Virus record (IMG/VR): IMGVR_UViG_3300033183_000031
Location: 1 to 31,224 of that record
Source: a virus
Direction: 5' to 3' (one strand)
Length of the DNA stretch: 31,224 bases
Within the stretch, counting starts at the first letter, position 1. Every line of letters begins with the position of its first letter. The notes beneath the pieces are model-generated. The model worked only from the letters and a program-made list of their open reading frames with translations, was not told the origin of the DNA and did not search any database. Both the position numbers and the translations under genes were made by a program. This document shows positions 2,920-30,857 of this stretch, one piece after another.

Positions 2920-5028
2920 CTACGCAGAGATTGCGCCAAATGTTTTCCATGTGCCCGGGGTTCCTGCTGTCACGCAAACCCAGCCCATGAAGCCACCAGC
3001 AGAAGGCGTACTGTCCCAAACAATATCGCCTCTTTCGTATGTCCCAGATGTAGGCGCAGCACCGCCGTAACCAATCCCTTGTTGAAGCTCTTTGTAATAA
3101 ATTGTTGAACCTGTCTCACTAACATCAGCAATGCTATCAACCGATACATGCCCAATAATTATTGTACTGCTGTTTGAGGTGATTGCTGAAGTCCCCGCAG
3201 AACCACCAACAAAGATGTCGTTAATTGTGAATGTGGTTGTGTCACGGACGTAAAGAGCAGAGTTCCAGTCAGTATTAAGCTCAGTGACGTAGATTTTATC
3301 AATGACCATATCCTCACCATTTCGTGAGTGGATCACATTAGTGGCAGAATTTGCCGCTTGTGGCAATTCTTCTGCGTAAAGTCTGCCAATATACAGATTA
3401 TCTAAGCCATCATACAAAGAGCCAAAAGCTGGGCCTTTAATGTCTCTGACACGCAGGGAGTTGATGTGCATTTTTACAGTAGCTGTAGAGCCGCCATTTC
3501 CTACGTTAATGCAACCAACTTCTGAAGTTACTGGAGAATAATTGCAGCTTTGGAAAACTGCATTTCCAACATATGCAAAACAATTATTTCCAGTCCCAGT
3601 GTTTGTAATCTGGACTGGGTTTTCATTCCAGTTGTCTACATAGATATTATCTACAGAAAAGAACTCCCATGTCCCACCATTGATGTAGATACCATGACGA
3701 CCATTTGTTGTGTCATCATTCTTAATGTAAAGGTTTTGGATTTGCGTTCTCTTGGAAGAAGAGTTGATCCCGTAACCATACTGGGGAGCCGTGCCCTGAA
3801 CGTTGAACAGACGTATATCACCACAGATCAATGCATCACCAAATGATGTATCAATGGCTGTTGAAGCACCAGTTATCTTAGCAGATTTAATCTCTACATA
3901 CTCTGCGTCGCTTACAAAAAGAACTCTGTTCAAATTTGTTCTTGATGCAAAAGCTAAAGTCACTTCTGCAATAAGTGAATAGAAAACAACAGAAGTCGCA
4001 GATGTTGCTTTTAACCAATGATCTTCATCTCCTGTAAATGTAAATCTGCCAGAACCAAAAACCACAATGTTTGCTGGAATGGTAATTTGACTTGTTACTA
4101 AGTAATTACCTTCATCTAAATATAATGTCTTATTATTAGCAGCAGTAAACGCAGCTTGAATAGCCGCAGTATCATCCGTCACACCATCACCGACAGCACC
4201 AAAGTCTTTGACCGATACAGTCTCTTGCAGCTTGCTTGTTAGTGTACGATCCTGTGCGCCAGTGCTGCCTTGATTGTAGGTCACAACATCAGGATCAGTT
4301 GTTAGCGAGGTAACAGCATTACCCACAATAAACTCAATCGCAGAGTTTAAGGGTGGGGCTTCTGTGAATGTCAGCGTAGAGCCGCTAATCGAAAACGTGT
4401 CTTTGTTTTGGTAAACACCATCGATGTAGACTTGGATGTTGTTCTTTGATCCAGCCGCTTCTGTAGTGCTAAACGCAACAATAGTACCATCACCAGTATG
4501 GCTTGCCTTTGTGTAGTTAGCGCCCAGCACAGAGCCTGTCAGTAGGTCTGAGGCAGCTTGTGTTTGTACGTTGCCTTCTGTGTCAAAGCTGAGAAGTTTG
4601 TCTGCGCGAACGCTTGCTGCGGGTAGTTCCAGAGAGGCTGTCGACGGATCGAAGTCTTTGATTCTGATTGAGCGTTCAGCTAGGTCTTTGACATCAGCAC
4701 CAATAGCAGTCAGGGTATCAAGCTGCGTGTTCAGTGCAGCACGGTTAATATCCACGCCAGCAGTAAAGTCAGTGGTGCGCTCAATAGTAGTGTCGCGAGT
4801 AATAATTACTGTCTTAGCGCCAGTCACAGTCATTGTGACCGTACCAGTAGAACCATCGCCACCAGATACAGTGTAATTGGTAGTAATAGTTTGAAGAGCT
4901 TCATCGACATAAACATTCAAGTCAGTGTCAACAAAGAACTCAAACGGAACCGCAAAAGAAGTCTGGGTAACACCAGCAGCTACAGAGTAACTTATACGCG
5001 GAGTATTGTTAGAAATATCAATGGTCAT
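2920..5028 (-). CDS. T7 gp17-like tail fibre with pectate-lyase-like domain
   Basis: The protein has 702 residues. Residues 1-150 resemble the T7 gp17 N-terminal domain that joins the fibre to the tail (YSVAAGVTQTSFAVPFEFF, then the typical VIITRDT, INRAALNTQLD and RSIRIKDFDPS). A second repeat (TKASHTGDGTIVAFSTTEA) follows at about 175-240. Residues about 270-300 (VSVKDFGAVGDGVTDDTAAIQAAF) begin a beta-helix domain. The last 50 residues (GIGYGGAAPTSGTYERGDIVW, GWVCVTAGTPGTW) look like a small tip domain. It is the main adsorption fibre and the likely anchor for the next two fibres. The ribosome site GAGGTGA precedes the ATG, and a putative late promoter lies 46 bases upstream. Confidence 0.9.
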   Translation of the reverse strand: MTIDISNNTPRISYSVAAGVTQTSFAVPFEFFVDTDLNVYVDEALQTITTNYTVSGGDGSTGTVTMTVTGAKTVIITRDTTIERTTDFTAGVDINRAALNTQLDTLTAIGADVKDLAERSIRIKDFDPSTASLELPAASVRADKLLSFDTEGNVQTQAASDLLTGSVLGANYTKASHTGDGTIVAFSTTEAAGSKNNIQVYIDGVYQNKDTFSISGSTLTFTEAPPLNSAIEFIVGNAVTSLTTDPDVVTYNQGSTGAQDRTLTSKLQETVSVKDFGAVGDGVTDDTAAIQAAFTAANNKTLYLDEGNYLVTSQITIPANIVVFGSGRFTFTGDEDHWLKATSATSVVFYSLIAEVTLAFASRTNLNRVLFVSDAEYVEIKSAKITGASTAIDTSFGDALICGDIRLFNVQGTAPQYGYGINSSSKRTQIQNLYIKNDDTTNGRHGIYINGGTWEFFSVDNIYVDNWNENPVQITNTGTGNNCFAYVGNAVFQSCNYSPVTSEVGCINVGNGGSTATVKMHINSLRVRDIKGPAFGSLYDGLDNLYIGRLYAEELPQAANSATNVIHSRNGEDMVIDKIYVTELNTDWNSALYVRDTTTFTINDIFVGGSAGTSAITSNSSTIIIGHVSVDSIADVSETGSTIYYKELQQGIGYGGAAPTSGTYERGDIVWDSTPSAGGFMGWVCVTAGTPGTWKTFGAISA

Positions 5029-5100: not shown

Positions 5101-8100
5101 TTACTGCGCCCAAGCGCGGGTAATCTGATTTATATCATCCTTTAAAAACCACATTCTGGCAAAAGGAAGATTGCGAACAACTACTCGCGCACCCTCTCCA
5201 TATTCTCCGCTGGCAAACTGATATACCCCAGAGGCAGTATCAGCTGTCCAAGATGGTCCCGCTCCAGCAATCCCAGTAACAGCATCAAGTATACTAGGTT
5301 GTTGAGGGAACTTAGGAGATATAATGCCATTTGTAATGTTAGGCCCACCAAGAGCTAAAGATGTATGCATAGCAGTATAGAACAAGTCAGAATACAAAGC
5401 ACCAATACCGCTCATATCAAATGTTCTAGCAAACTTGTCACGCCAACTCATATTATCCCAAATATAATCTGGAGTACGAATAGATAGAGACATATAAGCT
5501 AAGCCAAATGCAGAGCCGACACCAAGCATTCTGTTTTTAACCTGACCTTGAGCAAACGCACCAACAGTTTTGTTTACGTTGGCAAGCATGTAACTGTAGA
5601 ACTGAAACGGCAGACCTAAGAAACCATTTTCAATACGAGTGTAACCTTTAAACTTAGCGTCTTCTTTGAAGCCAAACATGCGACCAATATGAGATGGAAT
5701 ATAAACAACACCATCATTAATAATTGGTTTGTCAGCAGGGGTTGCCGCCATAATTGTATTTAGCACACCACTATTTAAGGCAGACTTAAATGTCTGAACA
5801 GTTTCCTCATTAATAGTAGATTGCTTCTTCCATTCCTCTAAGGCCATACGATTCATTCGGTTTTCATAGTCAGGAACAGACTCGCCATCCATTTTCTTAG
5901 AACGTGAGTGCATAACCTCATGAAGCATTACAAAGTTAGACCACTGCTTTGGTGTCTTAAACACATCAGGCAAAGGCTCAACGCCCTCCATTTTTGGACT
6001 TAACCATGCCTTGCTGTCAAACATCTTTCCTTCAATGTATTCACGATCAAAGTAAATGCGATTTTCTTCTCTGCGGAAAAACGCTGGGACGTACCGACCA
6101 CCTATTATTTTACCAACAGGCGATCCATCTTCATTAACCTCAAGAATGTCTATGCGTTTGCCATCAACTTCAGGAATAAAAATATGATCGTTCCAGTGAT
6201 CAGTGTTGGCTAGATACAGACCATTCTCAGTCTTCTCCCAAGGAGCCTTGGCAATCTTCTCAGCTTGCTCGCGACCAATCCCATATTTAGCAAGCCAAGT
6301 TAGCTCTTGTTGAGTCAATTGATTGTATCGAATTGAGTAATCAATAATAGAATGACCATCAACAATACCAGCTAGTTGTTTAGCTAATACTGTCATTGGC
6401 CCCAAACCGTTCATTATGTGAAACGCATTTCGAGCATTGTTTAGCAATTCGCTTGCATCAAGATTGTTTGCCAAATCATCATGCAAGCGTAAGTGTGCGG
6501 AGCCAAGAAAAATATCTATTGCCTCACCAGCATATCTAGTTTGGTTTACAGCAACATTAACTTTATTCTTATCCATAAGAACCTGCATTCCACGAATAAC
6601 ATTCTCCATATCATGCTCCATAATGATACGAGAGAAATCAGGTAATGCAGCCAGACCAGCTGAACCAAGATAGTTAAGTGACGCTGCGTCACGCATAATT
6701 GCTGCAGTACGTTGGCTAAATGAATCAGGATCACGAAGAACAGCACCAGCAATTCGATCATACATGTGCATGTAGTCACGGCGCATACGGTTGATGTCTT
6801 TGTCTGAAAAGCCCTTTGAGATCATGTCGAACTCAAGATCAAACATAACGCCTTGAACATCTTGCCCAAACATCTTTGCATACTCAATGCGTGGCTCAAT
6901 CCGAGAAGCATAAGTCTTCATTGCTGCCAATGGATCGGTAACAATAAACTCAGTAACTAAACTGTTGGGAATGTCTATTTGACGATGGCGAAAATGCTTA
7001 GAGCGACCATAACCAAAACCAATGTTGTCAACATTAGTTGGATCAGTCTCACCAAGAATACGTTCAATAGTTAAGTCAACACGCTCTTGTATTTTCTCAG
7101 GACGCGCATCTAACTCTTTGCGTACAAACTGCGCAGTCTTTCGATCTAGTTCATAAACATACGGATTCTCAGTATACCACCTGTGCAAGATACCGCTAAG
7201 CTTAGAGCGATTCTTTCTAATAGCGCCCTTGTCCCAGAAACGAGGAAAGAAGACATCATTAGCCGCCCTGTTAGGCTCTAGGTCTTCTAGACCCATAAGA
7301 GACTGACGTTCATCTGCAAGCTTAGCACCAAGACGATTAAGCTCTGCTTTAATTAAACCAGCTTGCTTGCGTGACTTTGCTGTCTTCTTTGCTTCAGCGA
7401 CACTTAATCGACCATTTAGATTGTTAATTTTTGCTTCGAGTTGGGCAATGCGTTTCTCTAAGCCTTTTTGTGTGCCAATAAGGCCAGTGTCCTCTAGCCT
7501 GACTTGAGCATCCTCAAAGTATTTATTGATTACACCAATAGCTTTAATTTCGTTTTCTGTTAGATCAGCAGCTTTGTTAATTCTCTTTTCATTAACGCGA
7601 GTCAGCCATTTTTTGTAAGTATTTTCAGAACCAGAAATTTTTCTGCTAATCATTCCCAGATCAATATCTAGTTTGCTCGATGGCACTGCATTTGTATCTG
7701 CTCTCCAAAGAGTAAGCAGATCATCATGCGCCTTAACAAACAAACCACGGTTTGCAGCAGATCGCTGATGCACTGACTGAGGTGTAGGCAAACCAACTGA
7801 GTTCAAAGCAAGAGCAATGCCACTGTCTCCAAAGCTCTTAACAAAAGCTTCCTTAACAACTGTCGGATATTTAGACTGCAATGCTCGCTTCATTGGAGTC
7901 GTTACAGCTTTATATAAAAAACTATCTGTATATACAGAGTTCATAATACGAAACGGATCGTCCATATCTAAACCCATAGCCTCAAGTTCTCGCATTGCTT
8001 GCTCTTGCTTTAGAACTTGAGAGTAACCCTTCATCTCTTCAGACCTAGCTGCAAACATGCTAGACTGTGGCGTATCAGCATATTTAATAGCATCTGATTC

Positions 8101-8841
8101 CGCTCTTGCTGCCTCTGTGTCAAACATTTTAATCTGCTCAACTAGATACTCATCAGAATCATTGCCAAATCGACGCTCTGCTCTTGGAGTTCTTAATATC
8201 TCAGGAGTAATGTTGCCCATAAGATCAAGGCGACGAACCATCTGAAACTCTTCTTCAAGTGCAGCTTTTGTTTTTGTATACGCTCTTGTCTTTATGCCGC
8301 CAAATGCAGCGCCAAACCCTGCGCCAAACAAACCAGCAGCCAGTACATTTATTGCGCCCTCTTGTGCAGTTTGTAGAGGATCAGACTGTCTAGTTAATTC
8401 AACGCCAGCTTCTAATGCAGCAACCCCTGCGCCTACACGCAAAGCAGATCGACCAACACCAATAGCAGGGCCGCCAAAAGGTAAAGCAATCAAGTTAATA
8501 GGGTCAAAGATACCAGCACCAAACTGAGCAAGTATTGATGAGTTCTGCAATACCTGACGACGAGATGCAGACTCTTCAATTTGTTGCTTTAGTGCGGTCA
8601 TATGCTGTGGGCTAACAGCATGGTAAAGTTGTGGAGCAAACAACTCATACCCTTCTATGTCCTCTTTCCAGTCGTAACCTTCTTGGGGAGAGTAGCGAGT
8701 AGAGTTAGCTATCATGTTGTAAGCTGGAGCGTAACTATATCCCAGAGAAGCTTTCAGTGTATCAAAGAAAGACGGATCAGGCTGCTCAACTATATTGTTG
8801 TTAAAGTAACCAACACGAAAACTATTAACGTCAACTACCAC
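5101..8841 (-). CDS. gp16-like internal virion (ejection) protein with embedded zinc-metalloprotease motif
   Basis: The protein has 1246 residues, about the size of T7 gp16, and is the third gene of the ejection-protein set. It starts at GTG (8841), 6 bases after GGAGG and overlapping the previous gene by 11 bases. Residues 100-180 contain glycine/alanine-rich hydrophobic stretches suited to membrane insertion; about 450-510 is a coiled coil. T7 gp16 carries an N-terminal lytic transglycosylase; I see none here. Instead residues 974-978 read HEVMH, the HExxH zincin signature, within a segment (about 880-1005) that looks inserted between two ordinary ejection-protein stretches, with ENRMNRMALEEW downstream able to supply a glutamate ligand. 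By analogy it is ejected to form the periplasmic channel; the protease may cut the peptidoglycan layer or a host or virion protein. Confidence 0.8.
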   Translation of the reverse strand: MVVDVNSFRVGYFNNNIVEQPDPSFFDTLKASLGYSYAPAYNMIANSTRYSPQEGYDWKEDIEGYELFAPQLYHAVSPQHMTALKQQIEESASRRQVLQNSSILAQFGAGIFDPINLIALPFGGPAIGVGRSALRVGAGVAALEAGVELTRQSDPLQTAQEGAINVLAAGLFGAGFGAAFGGIKTRAYTKTKAALEEEFQMVRRLDLMGNITPEILRTPRAERRFGNDSDEYLVEQIKMFDTEAARAESDAIKYADTPQSSMFAARSEEMKGYSQVLKQEQAMRELEAMGLDMDDPFRIMNSVYTDSFLYKAVTTPMKRALQSKYPTVVKEAFVKSFGDSGIALALNSVGLPTPQSVHQRSAANRGLFVKAHDDLLTLWRADTNAVPSSKLDIDLGMISRKISGSENTYKKWLTRVNEKRINKAADLTENEIKAIGVINKYFEDAQVRLEDTGLIGTQKGLEKRIAQLEAKINNLNGRLSVAEAKKTAKSRKQAGLIKAELNRLGAKLADERQSLMGLEDLEPNRAANDVFFPRFWDKGAIRKNRSKLSGILHRWYTENPYVYELDRKTAQFVRKELDARPEKIQERVDLTIERILGETDPTNVDNIGFGYGRSKHFRHRQIDIPNSLVTEFIVTDPLAAMKTYASRIEPRIEYAKMFGQDVQGVMFDLEFDMISKGFSDKDINRMRRDYMHMYDRIAGAVLRDPDSFSQRTAAIMRDAASLNYLGSAGLAALPDFSRIIMEHDMENVIRGMQVLMDKNKVNVAVNQTRYAGEAIDIFLGSAHLRLHDDLANNLDASELLNNARNAFHIMNGLGPMTVLAKQLAGIVDGHSIIDYSIRYNQLTQQELTWLAKYGIGREQAEKIAKAPWEKTENGLYLANTDHWNDHIFIPEVDGKRIDILEVNEDGSPVGKIIGGRYVPAFFRREENRIYFDREYIEGKMFDSKAWLSPKMEGVEPLPDVFKTPKQWSNFVMLHEVMHSRSKKMDGESVPDYENRMNRMALEEWKKQSTINEETVQTFKSALNSGVLNTIMAATPADKPIINDGVVYIPSHIGRMFGFKEDAKFKGYTRIENGFLGLPFQFYSYMLANVNKTVGAFAQGQVKNRMLGVGSAFGLAYMSLSIRTPDYIWDNMSWRDKFARTFDMSGIGALYSDLFYTAMHTSLALGGPNITNGIISPKFPQQPSILDAVTGIAGAGPSWTADTASGVYQFASGEYGEGARVVVRNLPFARMWFLKDDINQITRAWAQ

Positions 8842-11800
8842 TTAGTGCCTCCAACATAGATTTTAGATGAAGCTCAAACTCATTAGCCATAGGATCATTA
8901 AGCGTAGATACTTGATCTAACATTCTGTTAATCATTCTAGGAATAGAAGTTGGTGAAGCCTGAAGTAGCTTTCTATAGTTAGATGAAACAGAGAGAGGCA
9001 ACCTTTCAAACAGTGGCTCAAATTGACGAGACTCTAATGCATCCAACATTATTGGAGCAATTGTTTGCTGGGCTGCAGAAGCTCTTTCTTCTTTTTCAGC
9101 AAAGAACTGCTCGCGTTCCTCCATAAACTGCGGCGTTGGCATAAAGGTCATACCACCCAATGGATTGATAAATGTCAGATCAGTTTCTGATGTACCTTTA
9201 GGGCCAACCAATGCCTCGGAAATTTGCTCATAACTAGCTTGCATTTCTTCTAATGAGGCCAATCTGCGATTACCCTCTTCAATAGCTGCTTCTTTATCCT
9301 TTTCAGTCTTCTTAGCTTTGTATCCTGCAAAGATTGGTTCATTTGTAGAAAAGAATGCTGGAATAACCACTGGCTCGTCGTTCTCATCAACATAGATTTC
9401 TACTTCTTGAAGATTACGAACACCCGCCTCATCAACAATAACTACGCCATAAGTCATGCCACGATCATCAGAATTAAAACCAACAGGCATTAATTTGAAC
9501 TCAGCTGTATTCCAGTCAATGTTTTTGTCTGTAGTCATTTGAGCCATAGACTTGCGGACATAGCTCATAAACGTATCTTCAAAACCTTTTACTGTAGAAG
9601 ATAATGGATACAAAGTTTTGTTAGAGCCAGCCGATGTAATGATCCGCTCATCCTCAACAAACTGGCTGTCAATTACACCCTTTAGGATGGTATCAATTTC
9701 CTCAAAACGTTTGTCATCTCTCGTTTCAGAAATGCTCTCAAAGTAGTGGACTTTAGCAGCACTTACCAATCGAGCAAACAAATTTGGATTTGTTAATGAC
9801 TCTGGGTAGTTTACGGAAATGTAATCTTCTACATTTTCAGTACGAGCTCTATTTGCCTTATTGCTTGCCTTGCGAGTAAAGAAGGCATCCATATCCTTAG
9901 ATAAGTTAGGATCAGCTATAGAACGGCTTACTTGCTGCAAGTGCTGCATCATAGCTTGAGGATCAGAGTTTGTTTCTGCAAAAGAAACCGCAGCATTCAT
10001 TAGTGCAATCTGATCTGCGTTAAGGCCAGATAGCCCACCTGAGTCAATCTCAAATCCAGCATCAGTTACATAAGACCGTGCAGATCGATAGGTAGAAAGA
10101 ACCCGCTTAACCTCACCCTCATCTGTAATTCGACCTGCTAAGAAAGAGTTGATTGTATCGTACTGAGCTTGAGGCCAATAAGATGGAGATATTTGCTGAA
10201 CAATAGCATTTGTTCGAGCGTCATCAGAATACTCAGGGTTTGTATAAAAATCAGCTGGTATGTTTAACTGACGATCAAGTTTTGCACGTTCAGCTGCTGT
10301 TAAGTCAGATGTGTCCCTTGCATTGTTAAGGACATCATTAAATAACTTTTGGTCTTGGATGTTTTGAATATTTGTTGCATATCGTTCATTTGCTCTTTTG
10401 CCATACTTATTTAAGTTTGTAGTAAAATAGCCAGGATCATCTGAGTTTTCCCGAGCAAGATCAATTGCTTTCTTTTGCTCTTCATTTAACAATGTAGCAT
10501 TAAAGTTTCTGTCTCGTGCATATTGCTGCATCTGATTAGTTACTTTTGGGTTTGATGCAGTGCTAAATGCAACTCGAAGATATTGACCAGAAACAAAGTT
10601 GCTAATCTGGCTCTTATAAGTTTCCTTGCTTGACGGCGACAATGCTGAGTAAAGCTCAGAATCCCGCTGTGTAATTAAATCCTCAAGATCGGCAGTTGTT
10701 TTGGCTTCAGTAAAGCTTGGGTAAAACTCATCTCTTAGATAATTATTGTAAGCAATAGCTGCATCCTGAAATGCTTTGTCCTCTTTGAACCGAACTTCAT
10801 CAGAAATGCTTTCTGCATATCTATCAGCTGCCTCGATCAAACCCGCCTGATTTGTTTGCTCTGCTACACTCAATAAGCTTGTCGCAAGACTGTTTGCTTC
10901 AGGACTTAACTTTGCCTTGTTCTCATCAGTAGGATTCTTTAAGAATGTTTGAATGTTAATAACATCCTCAACGCTCTCAGCCCCAGAAAACAATTTGCTA
11001 GTAAGCGCAGATGTCATGCTTTGAAGTCTAGCTGAAGACTCCATAGTGTATGACTCAACCTCTTGCTGGGTTGCTCCATTCCTAAATGCATTTAATCCAA
11101 GCTCTCGGTCTTGGAGGTAAGCATCAACTGCATCAGCAACAGAGCCAGTTAAACTCCAAGATGATGAGCCTAAAATATCAAAGTATTCTTGCGTTAAATC
11201 ATACTGGCTTGCAGCAGCTTCTGCTTGCCGCTGTCTTGTTTTGATTTCACGATCAAGACGTACTTGATTAATTCCATCAGTAATTAGCTCAGTTCCAAAT
11301 TGAGCAATGCTCTCACGGAATGAAGCTCCACGACCACCAAGCATTTTAGTTAGGTCAGTAAACACCCCACTGGGCATTCGACTTAGATCACCGCTATCTA
11401 TTGCAACCAAAGCTTGCTGCAAGTCGTAATCACTTACCCCCTCTTTAGTCGCCTTATAAAGTTCATATCTTAAAAGACCTCGCGCTTTAGCTTCATCTCT
11501 CTTAAGATCATTTCCAAGAGTAGCGTTTGGAAGTATTGTTCCAGCTTCAACATTAATACCATCAAGATTAACGCCAGCTGCTATAGTTCGTTGACCTAAC
11601 TCAAAGTTGCCAACCGCAAAAGCGTCTTCAATGCTAGATAGGTTTTCAGTGGAACTGTTTGCGTAAGCTAGCTGATCATTCTTTTCCTGACGAGCTTGCG
11701 CTTGTAGCTGCAATGCCCTGTATTTACTACCCTGTACGCTTGTTCCAATACTTTGGATCACTTGCTTAAATACAGTAGACTCTTCAACATTAGACATCTC

Positions 11801-12208
11801 GGCAATATAATCAGACATTGCTTGACGGAATGCTTCAGGACTCTTGCTAAATTGAATGGCCAGCTCTTTAGATTTGTCTTCAATCTCGGTGCTAATTTCT
11901 GTTTCAAAGCGCTGAAGCAATACTTGCTGATAAGCATTTTGAGCAATACGACCAAAACCTTTTGGACCTTCATAAATCTTGGGGCGACCAGTTTCTGGAT
12001 CAAGTTCAATAATCTCAGATCGCTCTAATCCTTGAGCGTATTCTATACCAGCTTTCTTAGCATCTTCAGCTGCACGTTGAGCAAGTTGTTGTTGTGCTTG
12101 CGCCCCCGCTTTAGCAACTGCTTCACCTACAATAACACCGCCACGAGATGCTCGTGCAACACCAACTGGTCCTATTTTAAACTGACGCTTTTCTCTAATA
12201 ACTGCCAT
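8831..12208 (-). CDS. gp15-like internal virion (ejection) protein
   Basis: The protein has 1125 residues, larger than T7 gp15 (about 750), almost entirely alpha-helical and soluble, rich in A, Q, E and S, with no cysteine noticed. The N-terminus is RQFKIGPVGVARASRGGVIVGEAVAKAG, followed by a long alanine/glutamine helix, a pattern typical of gp15-like proteins of marine podoviruses. It lies between the gp14-like and gp16-like genes, in the T7 order, overlapping the latter by 11 bases and 4 bases from the former. AGGAT precedes the ATG. The role (ejected during infection, building the trans-periplasmic conduit) is inferred from order and composition, not from a catalytic motif. Confidence 0.75.
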   Translation of the reverse strand: MAVIREKRQFKIGPVGVARASRGGVIVGEAVAKAGAQAQQQLAQRAAEDAKKAGIEYAQGLERSEIIELDPETGRPKIYEGPKGFGRIAQNAYQQVLLQRFETEISTEIEDKSKELAIQFSKSPEAFRQAMSDYIAEMSNVEESTVFKQVIQSIGTSVQGSKYRALQLQAQARQEKNDQLAYANSSTENLSSIEDAFAVGNFELGQRTIAAGVNLDGINVEAGTILPNATLGNDLKRDEAKARGLLRYELYKATKEGVSDYDLQQALVAIDSGDLSRMPSGVFTDLTKMLGGRGASFRESIAQFGTELITDGINQVRLDREIKTRQRQAEAAASQYDLTQEYFDILGSSSWSLTGSVADAVDAYLQDRELGLNAFRNGATQQEVESYTMESSARLQSMTSALTSKLFSGAESVEDVINIQTFLKNPTDENKAKLSPEANSLATSLLSVAEQTNQAGLIEAADRYAESISDEVRFKEDKAFQDAAIAYNNYLRDEFYPSFTEAKTTADLEDLITQRDSELYSALSPSSKETYKSQISNFVSGQYLRVAFSTASNPKVTNQMQQYARDRNFNATLLNEEQKKAIDLARENSDDPGYFTTNLNKYGKRANERYATNIQNIQDQKLFNDVLNNARDTSDLTAAERAKLDRQLNIPADFYTNPEYSDDARTNAIVQQISPSYWPQAQYDTINSFLAGRITDEGEVKRVLSTYRSARSYVTDAGFEIDSGGLSGLNADQIALMNAAVSFAETNSDPQAMMQHLQQVSRSIADPNLSKDMDAFFTRKASNKANRARTENVEDYISVNYPESLTNPNLFARLVSAAKVHYFESISETRDDKRFEEIDTILKGVIDSQFVEDERIITSAGSNKTLYPLSSTVKGFEDTFMSYVRKSMAQMTTDKNIDWNTAEFKLMPVGFNSDDRGMTYGVVIVDEAGVRNLQEVEIYVDENDEPVVIPAFFSTNEPIFAGYKAKKTEKDKEAAIEEGNRRLASLEEMQASYEQISEALVGPKGTSETDLTFINPLGGMTFMPTPQFMEEREQFFAEKEERASAAQQTIAPIMLDALESRQFEPLFERLPLSVSSNYRKLLQASPTSIPRMINRMLDQVSTLNDPMANEFELHLKSMLEALSGS

Positions 12209-12212
12209 ATTG

Positions 12213-12671
12213 CTATCCTGTTGGTGTTACTTTAGCTAAACTATCCTGATAGTCTGCATAACCTTGTGCCATTGTGGTAAATGCACCAATCATTGCAGCT
12301 TGTCTACGCGCCCTGCCCTCAATACGAGTTGCCGTTGCTTGTTGCTGAAGTTTCATAGCCTCAAAAACGCCCATCAAATCTGAGCGATTAGTATCTTCAA
12401 CTGCTATTTCTTTTTGCCTATCCAAAAATGCAGTCACAGATCGATCAGAAGATACATCCCGACCCATAGCAGAAAACGAAGCAATGTTTGCTTTCACATT
12501 ATATCGATATTGCTCAAGACGGTCATTGTGTCGTTGCAAAGCCTCAGTTTGACTTATGACTTTTTGCGTTTCAATATTAAAAGCATCTAGCTTTCCAGCT
12601 TCCTCAGCGGCTCTTCCAGCTGCAATTTGACCCGCTGCGCTAACACCAGCTGCAATAAGTTGCCAAACCAT
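12213..12671 (-). CDS. gp14-like internal virion (ejection) protein
   Basis: The protein has 152 residues, similar to or a little shorter than T7 gp14 (about 196). The N-terminus WQLIAAGVSAAGQIAAGRAAEEAG is a small-residue amphipathic helix able to insert in membranes. It is followed by a long helix (KLDAFNIETQKVISQTEALQRHNDRLEQY) and a C-terminal alanine-rich helix. This layout is characteristic of gp14-like ejection proteins, which form the outer-membrane pore during DNA entry. It precedes the gp15- and gp16-like genes, as in T7. GAGG lies 11 bases before the ATG. Confidence 0.75.
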   Translation of the reverse strand: MVWQLIAAGVSAAGQIAAGRAAEEAGKLDAFNIETQKVISQTEALQRHNDRLEQYRYNVKANIASFSAMGRDVSSDRSVTAFLDRQKEIAVEDTNRSDLMGVFEAMKLQQQATATRIEGRARRQAAMIGAFTTMAQGYADYQDSLAKVTPTG

Positions 12672-16690: not shown

Positions 16691-17284
16691 TCAATGCACT
16701 ACAGGCCGTGATGTGCCATCATAAACATTTTTTCCGTTGGGATTACAACGCACAAAATCAACGTACTTGTGCGGCCCCATCGTTGCTACACCCACTGCTT
16801 CAAAGTCTAACCAAGCTGCCCAGTCTAAGACAAACTCAAAGTCACCGTTGATTGTCATTGATAAACCAGCGTGTGATTGATCGAAGAAGTTGACCAGCAT
16901 TCGTGATCCACGCGCCATTGCATGGAAGTTTTCTTTGATCTTGTCGGAAAACATTGCAAACATCTGAGGCCAAGTCTGATCGTCATCAAACCAAAGGCCG
17001 CCCACCATAATAAAGCTTTCGCCTTCTTTACGGCAGATGTAGCACTCTGACGTTTCATACATCTCAATCAAAGCTTCCCTTACGTCAACATGGCCTAGTA
17101 TTGCCAGTTCATGTCGGTTCTCTAAGCTGAGATTTTGAGCCACTTCTTCAACGTGGTCTAAAGTAAAAGGGGTAAGATAGAACTTACCCCTTTGCAGTAT
17201 CTTAATCTCGGTAGATGTTTTGGAACCCTTCGGTAACTTGCTTGATGAAGAGCGGGTCTTTATCTTTCCAGTACCTTGGGTCAT
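16691..17284 (-). CDS. GNAT-fold-like protein (T7 gp13-like)
   Basis: The protein has 197 residues. The central part (SECYICRKEGESFIMVGGLWFDDDQTW, then MARGSRMLVNFFDQSHAGLSMTINGDFEFVLDWAAWLDFEAVG) resembles the acetyltransferase-like fold of T7 gp13, a small virion-associated protein. The family role is assembly-related; enzymatic acetylation is not shown. The ATG at 17284 has GGGAG upstream and lies 83 bases inside the scaffold gene in another frame. Residues 1-30 are low-complexity (S, K, T) and run through the terminator at 17167-17194, so a later, non-ATG start is possible. The 3' end carries a copy of the late promoter element that could serve the capsid gene. Confidence 0.55.
   Translation of the reverse strand: MTQGTGKIKTRSSSSKLPKGSKTSTEIKILQRGKFYLTPFTLDHVEEVAQNLSLENRHELAILGHVDVREALIEMYETSECYICRKEGESFIMVGGLWFDDDQTWPQMFAMFSDKIKENFHAMARGSRMLVNFFDQSHAGLSMTINGDFEFVLDWAAWLDFEAVGVATMGPHKYVDFVRCNPNGKNVYDGTSRPVVH
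16746..16757 (-). promoter_or_regulatory. Putative late promoter element upstream of capsid gene
   Basis: Minus strand TTTTGTGCGTTG, identical over 12 bases to the elements before the tail-fibre and portal groups. It lies 136 bases before the capsid start, inside the last codons of the GNAT-like gene, where it encodes ordinary residues (FVRCN). The greater distance makes it less certain than the other copies. Confidence 0.35.
17167..17194 (-). terminator. Rho-independent terminator after the scaffold gene, inside the GNAT-like ORF
   Basis: On the minus strand AAAGGGGTAAG-TTCTAT-CTTACCCCTTT forms a perfect 11-base-pair stem with a six-base loop, followed by TACTTT. It begins 8 bases after the scaffold stop codon. 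It also lies within the 5' part of the GNAT-like reading frame, so terminated transcripts would lose that gene. Confidence 0.7.
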
Positions 17285-30316: not shown

Positions 30317-30421
30317 ATGAAAGATTATTTTCACATGCTGGAACTTATTGAAAAGTTCAGAAAAGTTTATGGAAGGCAGCCAACACGAGAAGAAATCTTA
30401 CTTATCTACAATGGCAAGTAA
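30317..30421 (+). CDS. Mini protein of 34 residues
   Basis: It encodes MKDYFHMLELIEKFRKVYGR and then QPTREEILLIYNGK, a helical pattern resembling 'IekFrkvyGRqPTreEi', which looks like the N-terminus of a small phage HTH-type domain. ATG 30317 has no strong ribosome site (ATG-rich context after AAGGTTTAA). Tentative. Confidence 0.4.
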   Translation: MKDYFHMLELIEKFRKVYGRQPTREEILLIYNGK

Positions 30422-30424
30422 TCG

Positions 30425-30476
30425 TGGGGGCGTTATAGTGTCGGGCTATATATGCAATGGGCTTGCACCGCCCCCA
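30425..30476 (+). other. Possible structured RNA: three-way junction leader
   Basis: TGGGGGCG (30425-30432) pairs with CGCCCCCA (30469-30476). Inside, TATAG/CTATA (30434-30438 with 30446-30450) and TGCAA/TTGCA (30453-30457 with 30463-30467) form two hairpins. Junction strands are only 1-2 bases. It ends 34 bases before the HTH gene start at 30510. No known riboswitch or ribozyme recognised (no hammerhead core). Confidence 0.45.
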
Positions 30477-30509
30477 GAACTTTCTATCAAAAACAAAAAG
30501 GAGAACAAG

Positions 30510-30857
30510 ATGAAAACCTTAGGTGACGCAAGAAAACTTGCGGGATACACACAAAAAATGGTGTGTGAAGAATTAGATGTAGATCAAAGTTCATTAGCAC
30601 ATTGGGAAGGTGGTTATAGAGCAATCCCACAATATCGCTTTGATCAAATGACACAGCTTTACGGCGTTCACCCACAAGAAATAGAATTACCAGAACTAAA
30701 AACACACAAGAAGAAACGCAAACAGGATTTATCTAAACGTTATTACAACGCACGTGCGGATGCATTGCGCTTTGCTTTAGCCCAAATTGTACCGCAAGAA
30801 CACACTGAAAAAGTTATTGAACTTTGCGCAATGATATATGAAGTGGAAAATAAGTAA
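30510..30857 (+). CDS. Cro/CI-family HTH regulator (115 residues)
   Basis: Start at ATG 30510 after AAAAAGGAGAACAAG; the frame is open upstream to 30348 but those codons cover the structured leader. HTH at residues 3-55 (LGDARKLAGYTQKMVCEELDVDQSSLAHWEGGYRAIPQYRFDQMTQLYGV), followed by a lysine-rich linker and a helical C-terminus that may dimerise. Likely a phage regulator of early or late transcription. Overlaps the next gene's ATG by one base. Confidence 0.75.
   Translation: MKTLGDARKLAGYTQKMVCEELDVDQSSLAHWEGGYRAIPQYRFDQMTQLYGVHPQEIELPELKTHKKKRKQDLSKRYYNARADALRFALAQIVPQEHTEKVIELCAMIYEVENK

Follow-up and report, generated by a model that had tools for sequence, protein, structure and literature searches.

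An optional and exchangeable cassette with a predicted zincin fold inside the gp16-like ejection protein of a podovirus and its relatives

The window analysed here is a stretch of viral DNA of 31,224 nucleotides (positions 1 to 31,224 of IMG/VR record IMGVR_UViG_3300033183_000031), and a gene on its minus strand at 5101..8841, with a GTG start, encodes a protein of 1246 residues that is assigned as a gp16-like ejection (internal virion) protein by its family profile and gene order. The profile phrog_342, 'internal virion protein with endolysin domain', matches residues 20-885 with an E of 1.9e-38, and a local alignment with T7 gp16 has an E of 2e-4. Genes for terminase, portal, capsid, nozzle, a gp14-like internal virion protein (12213..12671, minus strand; phrog_418, E 5.3e-6) and a protein of 1125 residues in the gp15 position (8831..12208, minus strand, without a convincing family match) precede it. 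A short protein adjoining the capsid gene (16691-17284) matches the internal virion protein family phrog_308 (E 3e-5), and two beta-helix, pectate-lyase-like tail proteins (2920-5028 and 558-2045) lie downstream of gp16. Elsewhere in the window (30348-30857) is a helix-turn-helix protein resembling phage repressors (phrog_3, E 1e-5), with a Sak-type annealing protein, a YqaJ nuclease and RusA near it. Among cultured phages the closest relative is Hodr, a SAR11 phage (terminase 65%, portal 64%), and so a SAR11-like host is plausible; a prophage search for the host found no relative of the gp16-like core among the cellular genomes searched.

Matches of the gp16-like protein to known families end at residues 885-888, those found by tblastn in Vibrio phages stopping at 888. 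Beyond this point lies an inserted block of residues about 886-1012 (5806..6186, minus strand), the limits of which were set by comparison with relatives that have an empty site and that run directly from ...LANxxxW into ...NSGVLNTIMxATPADKP. On its N-terminal side are residues 1-885 (6187..8841, minus strand), where T7 residues 297-403 align with residues 76-178, and on its C-terminal side residues 1013-1246 (5104..5805, minus strand), which a family profile relates weakly to T7 gp16 1104-1177 and whose T7 counterpart is the stretch leading up to the second membrane segment together with that segment. A sequence-only reading had seen here an insertion between two ordinary stretches at about 5820-6220, and both the insertion and its extent are upheld by the end of the family matches and by the continuity of empty-site relatives across the site. 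Translation of the gene agrees with that reading also in placing HEVMH, an HExxH motif, at residues 974-978 (5908..5922, minus strand), with H974 and H978 as predicted zinc ligands and E975 as predicted general base. YENRMNRMALEEW begins at residue 992 of the translated protein, and within the stretch YENRMNRMA (residues 992-1000; 5842..5868, minus strand) E993, with its codon at 5863-5865, is the predicted third ligand. IYFD at residues 929-932 (6046..6057, minus strand) forms a predicted strand before the HExxH helix and is an edge-strand candidate. That HEVMH is a chance motif was considered and ruled out by the expectation of 0.018 HExxH occurrences in a protein of such composition together with its conservation among relatives.

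Relatives in IMG/VR were gathered by the block (30 loci), by the flanking core (the best 80 of 147) and by other module types (69 loci). The resulting comparison set has 92 sequences, that is 90 unique contigs including the window plus Hodr and one Vibrio phage, and both flanking anchors are present in 86 of these (left out are L077, L083, L105, L113, L117 and L028). Between the anchors there are 23-47 residues in 14 of the 86 and at least 146 in the other 72, and so the segment is present or absent as a block among gp16-like relatives, which is what the sequence-only reading had proposed to look for. HExxH with a downstream glutamate is found in 67 of the 72 block-bearing relatives, counted per contig with many near-copies among them (66 HExxH-bearing regions make 36 clusters), and all 67 have the glutamate of the predicted third ligand after HExxH; homologues lacking the histidines or the glutamate of the motif would have told against the sequence-only reading, and these residues are kept in the 67 of 72. 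The five block-bearing sequences without HExxH are L035-L037 and L108, in which the domain is kept and the motif lost, and L130, in which the region is unrelated and proline-rich. An alignment of 30 diverse rows, 25-77% identical to the window and made up of the window and 29 of the 36 clusters (the seven with the longest inserts being left out by choice), has only H974, E975, H978, E993, A1000 and N1028 as invariant columns, where the invariance of the histidines is by construction because all rows were chosen for HExxH and the fair count is the 67 of 72.

Among the 67 the catalytic codons vary synonymously (first histidine CAT 50 and CAC 17, general base GAA 40 and GAG 27, second histidine CAC 44 and CAT 23, third-ligand glutamate GAA 44 and GAG 23), and dN/dS for the block is 0.02-0.38 in ten pairs. 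At the sequence level this pattern is one of purifying selection on the three ligands and the general base in most members. Type C modules (L111, L113, L114, L116, L118-L124, L127-L129) have an extra HExxH, HEYVH, some 70-86 residues before the conserved one and a strand-like stretch after it; the extra motif is probably chance or a family quirk.

Two AlphaFold models cover the block, the first of residues 815-1080, with pLDDT of 84-93 over residues 905-1004, and the second of residues 881-1033 with 30 alignment rows, with a mean pLDDT of 87.7, a pTM of 0.79 and pLDDT of 94-97 over residues 901-1000. A prediction in which HEVMH did not lie on a helix had been set beforehand as grounds for abandoning the zincin assignment; in both models the motif lies on a confidently predicted helix, at model residues 84-100 in the second, and a further helix follows that has E993 (model residue 113) close to its beginning. 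The strand ahead of the motif helix is at residues 48-51 of the second model, residues 928-931 of the protein. An HExxH helix with a predicted third ligand on the following helix is thus found by sequence and by predicted helices. In structural ranking by VIA-align, where Z under 8 can reflect a common arrangement and the values obtained here are modest, the second model comes closest to the YbeY-type structure 1oz9 (Z 6.2, rmsd 4.1, 105 aligned), followed by selecase (Z 4.9, rmsd 4.8, 86 aligned), Wss1 (4.7), jannalysin (4.7) and deuterolysin (3.7). The first 14 rows of this ranking we take all to be of the zincin fold, with the first unrelated structure appearing after them at Z 3.7, and the first six rows for the first model (best Z 4.8) are presumably zincins likewise. 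Foldseek against the PDB gave no match at E <= 0.001 with either model, and so the comparison with zincin folds that had been proposed stands as regards rank and not as regards significance. Three matches in BFVD at E <= 0.001 and two near 0.005 all involve long viral proteins that have no functional name. Overall it is very probable that the block has a zincin fold, and catalysis by this predicted module in the window phage is likely.

Assignment to a named peptidase family is less straightforward. The window block has no match in Pfam or NCBIfam, and its matches in PHROGs (phrog_22097, E 0.18) and among PDB sequences were rejected as chance-level. When 30 diverse members were searched singly against Pfam at E <= 10, the families matched by most members were MPTase-PolyVal and Peptidase_M78, with three members each and best E values of 0.028 and 0.044. 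At record level none of 12 records exceeds the 27.5-bit cut-off of MPTase-PolyVal (PF18818), the best having 13.7 bits, and none of the 12 matches Peptidase_M78 (ImmA/IrrE, PF06114) at E <= 0.001. ImmA/IrrE proteins have an E...N..A pattern downstream of HExxH, and the IrrE pattern is spaced as are E993, N997 and A1000 here; the HExxH is thus shared and a few members match weakly, but there is no significant record-level match and the context differs. Minigluzincins such as selecase and jannalysin represent a small form of the zincin fold and are among the nearest structures, modestly so at Z 4.4-4.9 and with identity of only 13-17%, but the known ones are standalone archaeal proteins.

The closest likeness in setting is to the MPTase-PolyVal domains of the N4 virion RNA polymerase and phage P1 DdrB, which likewise have an HExxH helix, a glutamate on the next helix and variable inserts between these, and which likewise occur in large proteins delivered with phage DNA (PMC5512222). 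In contrast to those, the modules described here fall below the Pfam cut-off and are carried by an ejection protein of the T7 gp16 type; 'gp16', 'ejection' and 'internal virion' do not occur as terms in the available text of that source (PMC5512222), and exchange between near-identical carriers is documented here. That zincins occur in injected phage proteins is, from what is available of the same work, already established by sequence analysis (PMC5512222), and what is new here is that the carrier is gp16-like, that modules are swapped and sit at multiple sites, and that some copies are inactivated. A search of the open-access literature, most subscription journals lying outside it, turned up no account of zincins carried by gp16-like ejection proteins.

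The block behaves as an optional, exchangeable cassette inside the gp16-like ejection protein. L069 and L070 have 97% amino acid identity both upstream (853/883) and downstream (207/213) of the block and 39% within it; their DNA matches over 6.7 kb up to the block, breaks off and restarts after it, and the L069 block is 67% identical to that of L075 though the upstream parts of this second pair are 58% identical. Similarly L132, which is empty with a region of 24 residues, and L119, with one of 194, have flanks that are 97% and 98% identical, whilst regions of 344 and 163 residues (L133 and L134) lie between flanks of 90% and 98% identity and regions of 396 and 150 (L106 and L102) between flanks of 92% and 98%. 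A tree built from the flanking core of 86 rows needs 7 changes of presence or absence and 13 of module type; the type labels are rough in that type A takes in L133, L140 and L144, each of which looks like an inactivated type A module with an active type-B-like one after it. Maturation of the core, one role put forward by the sequence-only reading, is at odds with a block that is absent or swapped in proteins otherwise 97-98% identical. Swapping alone could reflect general mosaicism. Against L068 the window protein has diverged over much of residues 361-840 as well as in the block, where four-fold sites differ more (20/31 against 141/413, p 0.0015); a claim of recent swapping of the window's own block was dropped because other parts of gp16 are mosaic too.

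Besides exchange in place, copies of the module are found at no fewer than three sites, near window-equivalent residues 256-312, 560-595 and 886. Intact copies near 256-312 are in L193, L211 and L212, and those near 560-595 in L170, L171, L179, L180, L186, L196-L198, L203, L204, L206, L209, L218-L220, L222 and L223. A scan for modules of types B and C found HExxH in 68 of 69 loci (the exception being L217), all 69 within gp16-like ORFs, and no standalone copy was found among 143 six-frame matches in the loci of the relatives. The gp16 of Hodr lacks a module at the usual site, and an inactivated one lies at its residues 258-358 (E 6e-11). T7 gp16 aligns at 297-529 and, weakly, at 1104-1177, and because of this the sites are placed within gp16-C (411-1118) or at its borders, the T7 position of the middle one being given by order only. 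Such a placing is consistent with a preference for gp16-C and not significant, because there are only three sites and the region is most of the protein.

Domains without HExxH persist at the usual site (L035-L037, L108) and elsewhere (L217, Hodr), and so catalysis is dispensable in some lineages. This would suit a zincin fold serving as a spacer or binding domain for gp16 packing or partner binding, with a structural metal site, as would the absence of the module from the gp16 proteins of T7 and the Vibrio phage. We regard such a non-catalytic role as improbable, since the three ligands and the general base appear to be under purifying selection in most members, 67 of 72. A somewhat better candidate, although still an unlikely one, is that the target of the zincin is gp16 itself, cleaved in the head or once ejected, so that gp16-C or a nested cargo domain is freed or activated. 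Self-processing has been proposed, alongside attack on host proteins, for the zincins of polyvalent proteins, and phage P1 DdrB is processed before packaging, as far as the available text of the source goes (PMC5512222); several relatives have about 90-250 extra residues that separate the helix of HExxH from that of the glutamate and are possible cargo, and it is in such proteins that self-processing is most plausible. But the module sits at several chain positions, and near-identical gp16 without it (L132 against L119) and inactivated copies in other relatives exist, and so processing cannot be required for gp16 function in general. The longest nested inserts, of up to about 250 residues in L030:6286-7068, L106 (same contig) and L033, have stretches that by eye are ADP-ribosyltransferase-like; Pfam has no match for L030 at E <= 1 and none convincing for the other proteins scanned.

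A role at the envelope was the other function implied by the sequence-only reading, which had noted that no transglycosylase is visible. That observation was confirmed: T7 residue 297 aligns with residue 76 of the window protein, which lacks the N-terminal region that holds the transglycosylase in T7, and scans of 23 window ORFs (of 104 mechanical ORFs) with Pfam and/or PHROGs gave no lytic domain. A protease or amidase-like activity might then open the wall or cut a periplasmic protein at DNA entry in place of the transglycosylase. However L142 (3076-4065) has an N-terminal Phage_lysozyme domain (PF00959, 22.9 bits against a cut-off of 22.3) in a gp16-like protein of 1663 residues that also has an intact zincin module, and so the module is not simply a stand-in for the transglycosylase and the implied replacement is not supported. 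Further, all mapped sites are in the part matching T7 gp16-C, outside the N-terminal periplasmic part, and of 12 IMG/VR relatives that lack the module at the usual site, 11 gave no copy elsewhere in their records, where whole-record scans met only the flanking helix; the exception, L135, probably has a copy near 560-595. An envelope role therefore merits little credence, and the idea of a virion-borne protease at DNA entry is kept in so far as a protease in the virion fits, the evidence favouring optional cargo for the host cytoplasm over a part of the entry machine. Four relatives (L166-L169) have about 230-335 residues ahead of the gp16 core, and a Pfam scan of residues 1-330 of L167 and L168 gave nothing convincing.

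Comparison with T7 gp16 and its relatives, which share protein family, gene order and DNA ejection (PMC8954989), sets the window protein apart in that it is without the N-terminal transglycosylase and has an extra module near the end of gp16-C. The available text of that account has the N-terminal transglycosylase in T7, not in P22-like phages, as not required family-wide, has the lysozyme domain moved to gp15 in K1E, and has no mention of protease, peptidase or zinc (PMC8954989). Polyvalent proteins combine several unrelated enzyme domains in a single delivered chain; L142 has lysozyme and zincin, the window protein one module.

Exchange, loss and relocation of the module in a protein that otherwise hardly changes suggest that what it acts on belongs to the host. 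The reading preferred, at a probability of about 0.5, is of an optional zincin-type metallopeptidase cassette that is carried in a gp16-like protein, delivered, and most likely cuts a host protein. Packed into the head within gp16, the module would exit together with the ejection proteins, arrive in the host cytoplasm within the gp16-C region and cut a host protein there at an early stage of infection, possibly a regulator or a component of host defence. The computations show the block with its conserved motif and predicted helices, its presence or absence, its swapping, its inactivated copies and its several insertion sites, whereas zinc binding, proteolysis and a host target are inferred for the module, and delivery to the cytoplasm is suggested by analogy with T7, where gp16-C has been modelled in the host cytoplasm in what is available of that study (PMC8954989), the T7 alignment being weak in the C-terminal part. 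Optional presence, exchange and purifying selection on catalytic residues fit a host-directed effector better than an always-needed step of gp16.

A broader proposal, tentative and held at somewhat less than even odds, is that in these podoviruses the gp16-like ejection proteins serve as delivery vehicles that have docking sites, by which a host-matched protease is delivered in each lineage as part of an arms race. At three or more positions, all of them within the part presumed to enter the cytoplasm, catalytic zincin cassettes would be exchanged, sometimes with nested cargo between the two catalytic helices, and the protease would enter with the DNA before any gene expression. T4 internal protein IPI* and similar anti-defence proteins are injected with DNA and vary between related phages, but the IPI*-type proteins are not proteases and are encoded by separate genes. 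If true, such an arms race would also account for the presence of some internal virion proteins in the variable 'islands' of marine phage metagenomes, which the available part of the source calls obscure (PMC3909814). If the module cuts a host protein, gp16 would be a modular injection vehicle and more than a DNA conduit. Cargo delivered with phage DNA is mostly poorly known, and the nearest cultured relative of these phages infects SAR11; the natural near-identical phage pairs amount to a ready-made experiment, with the same carrier and a different, absent or dead protease.
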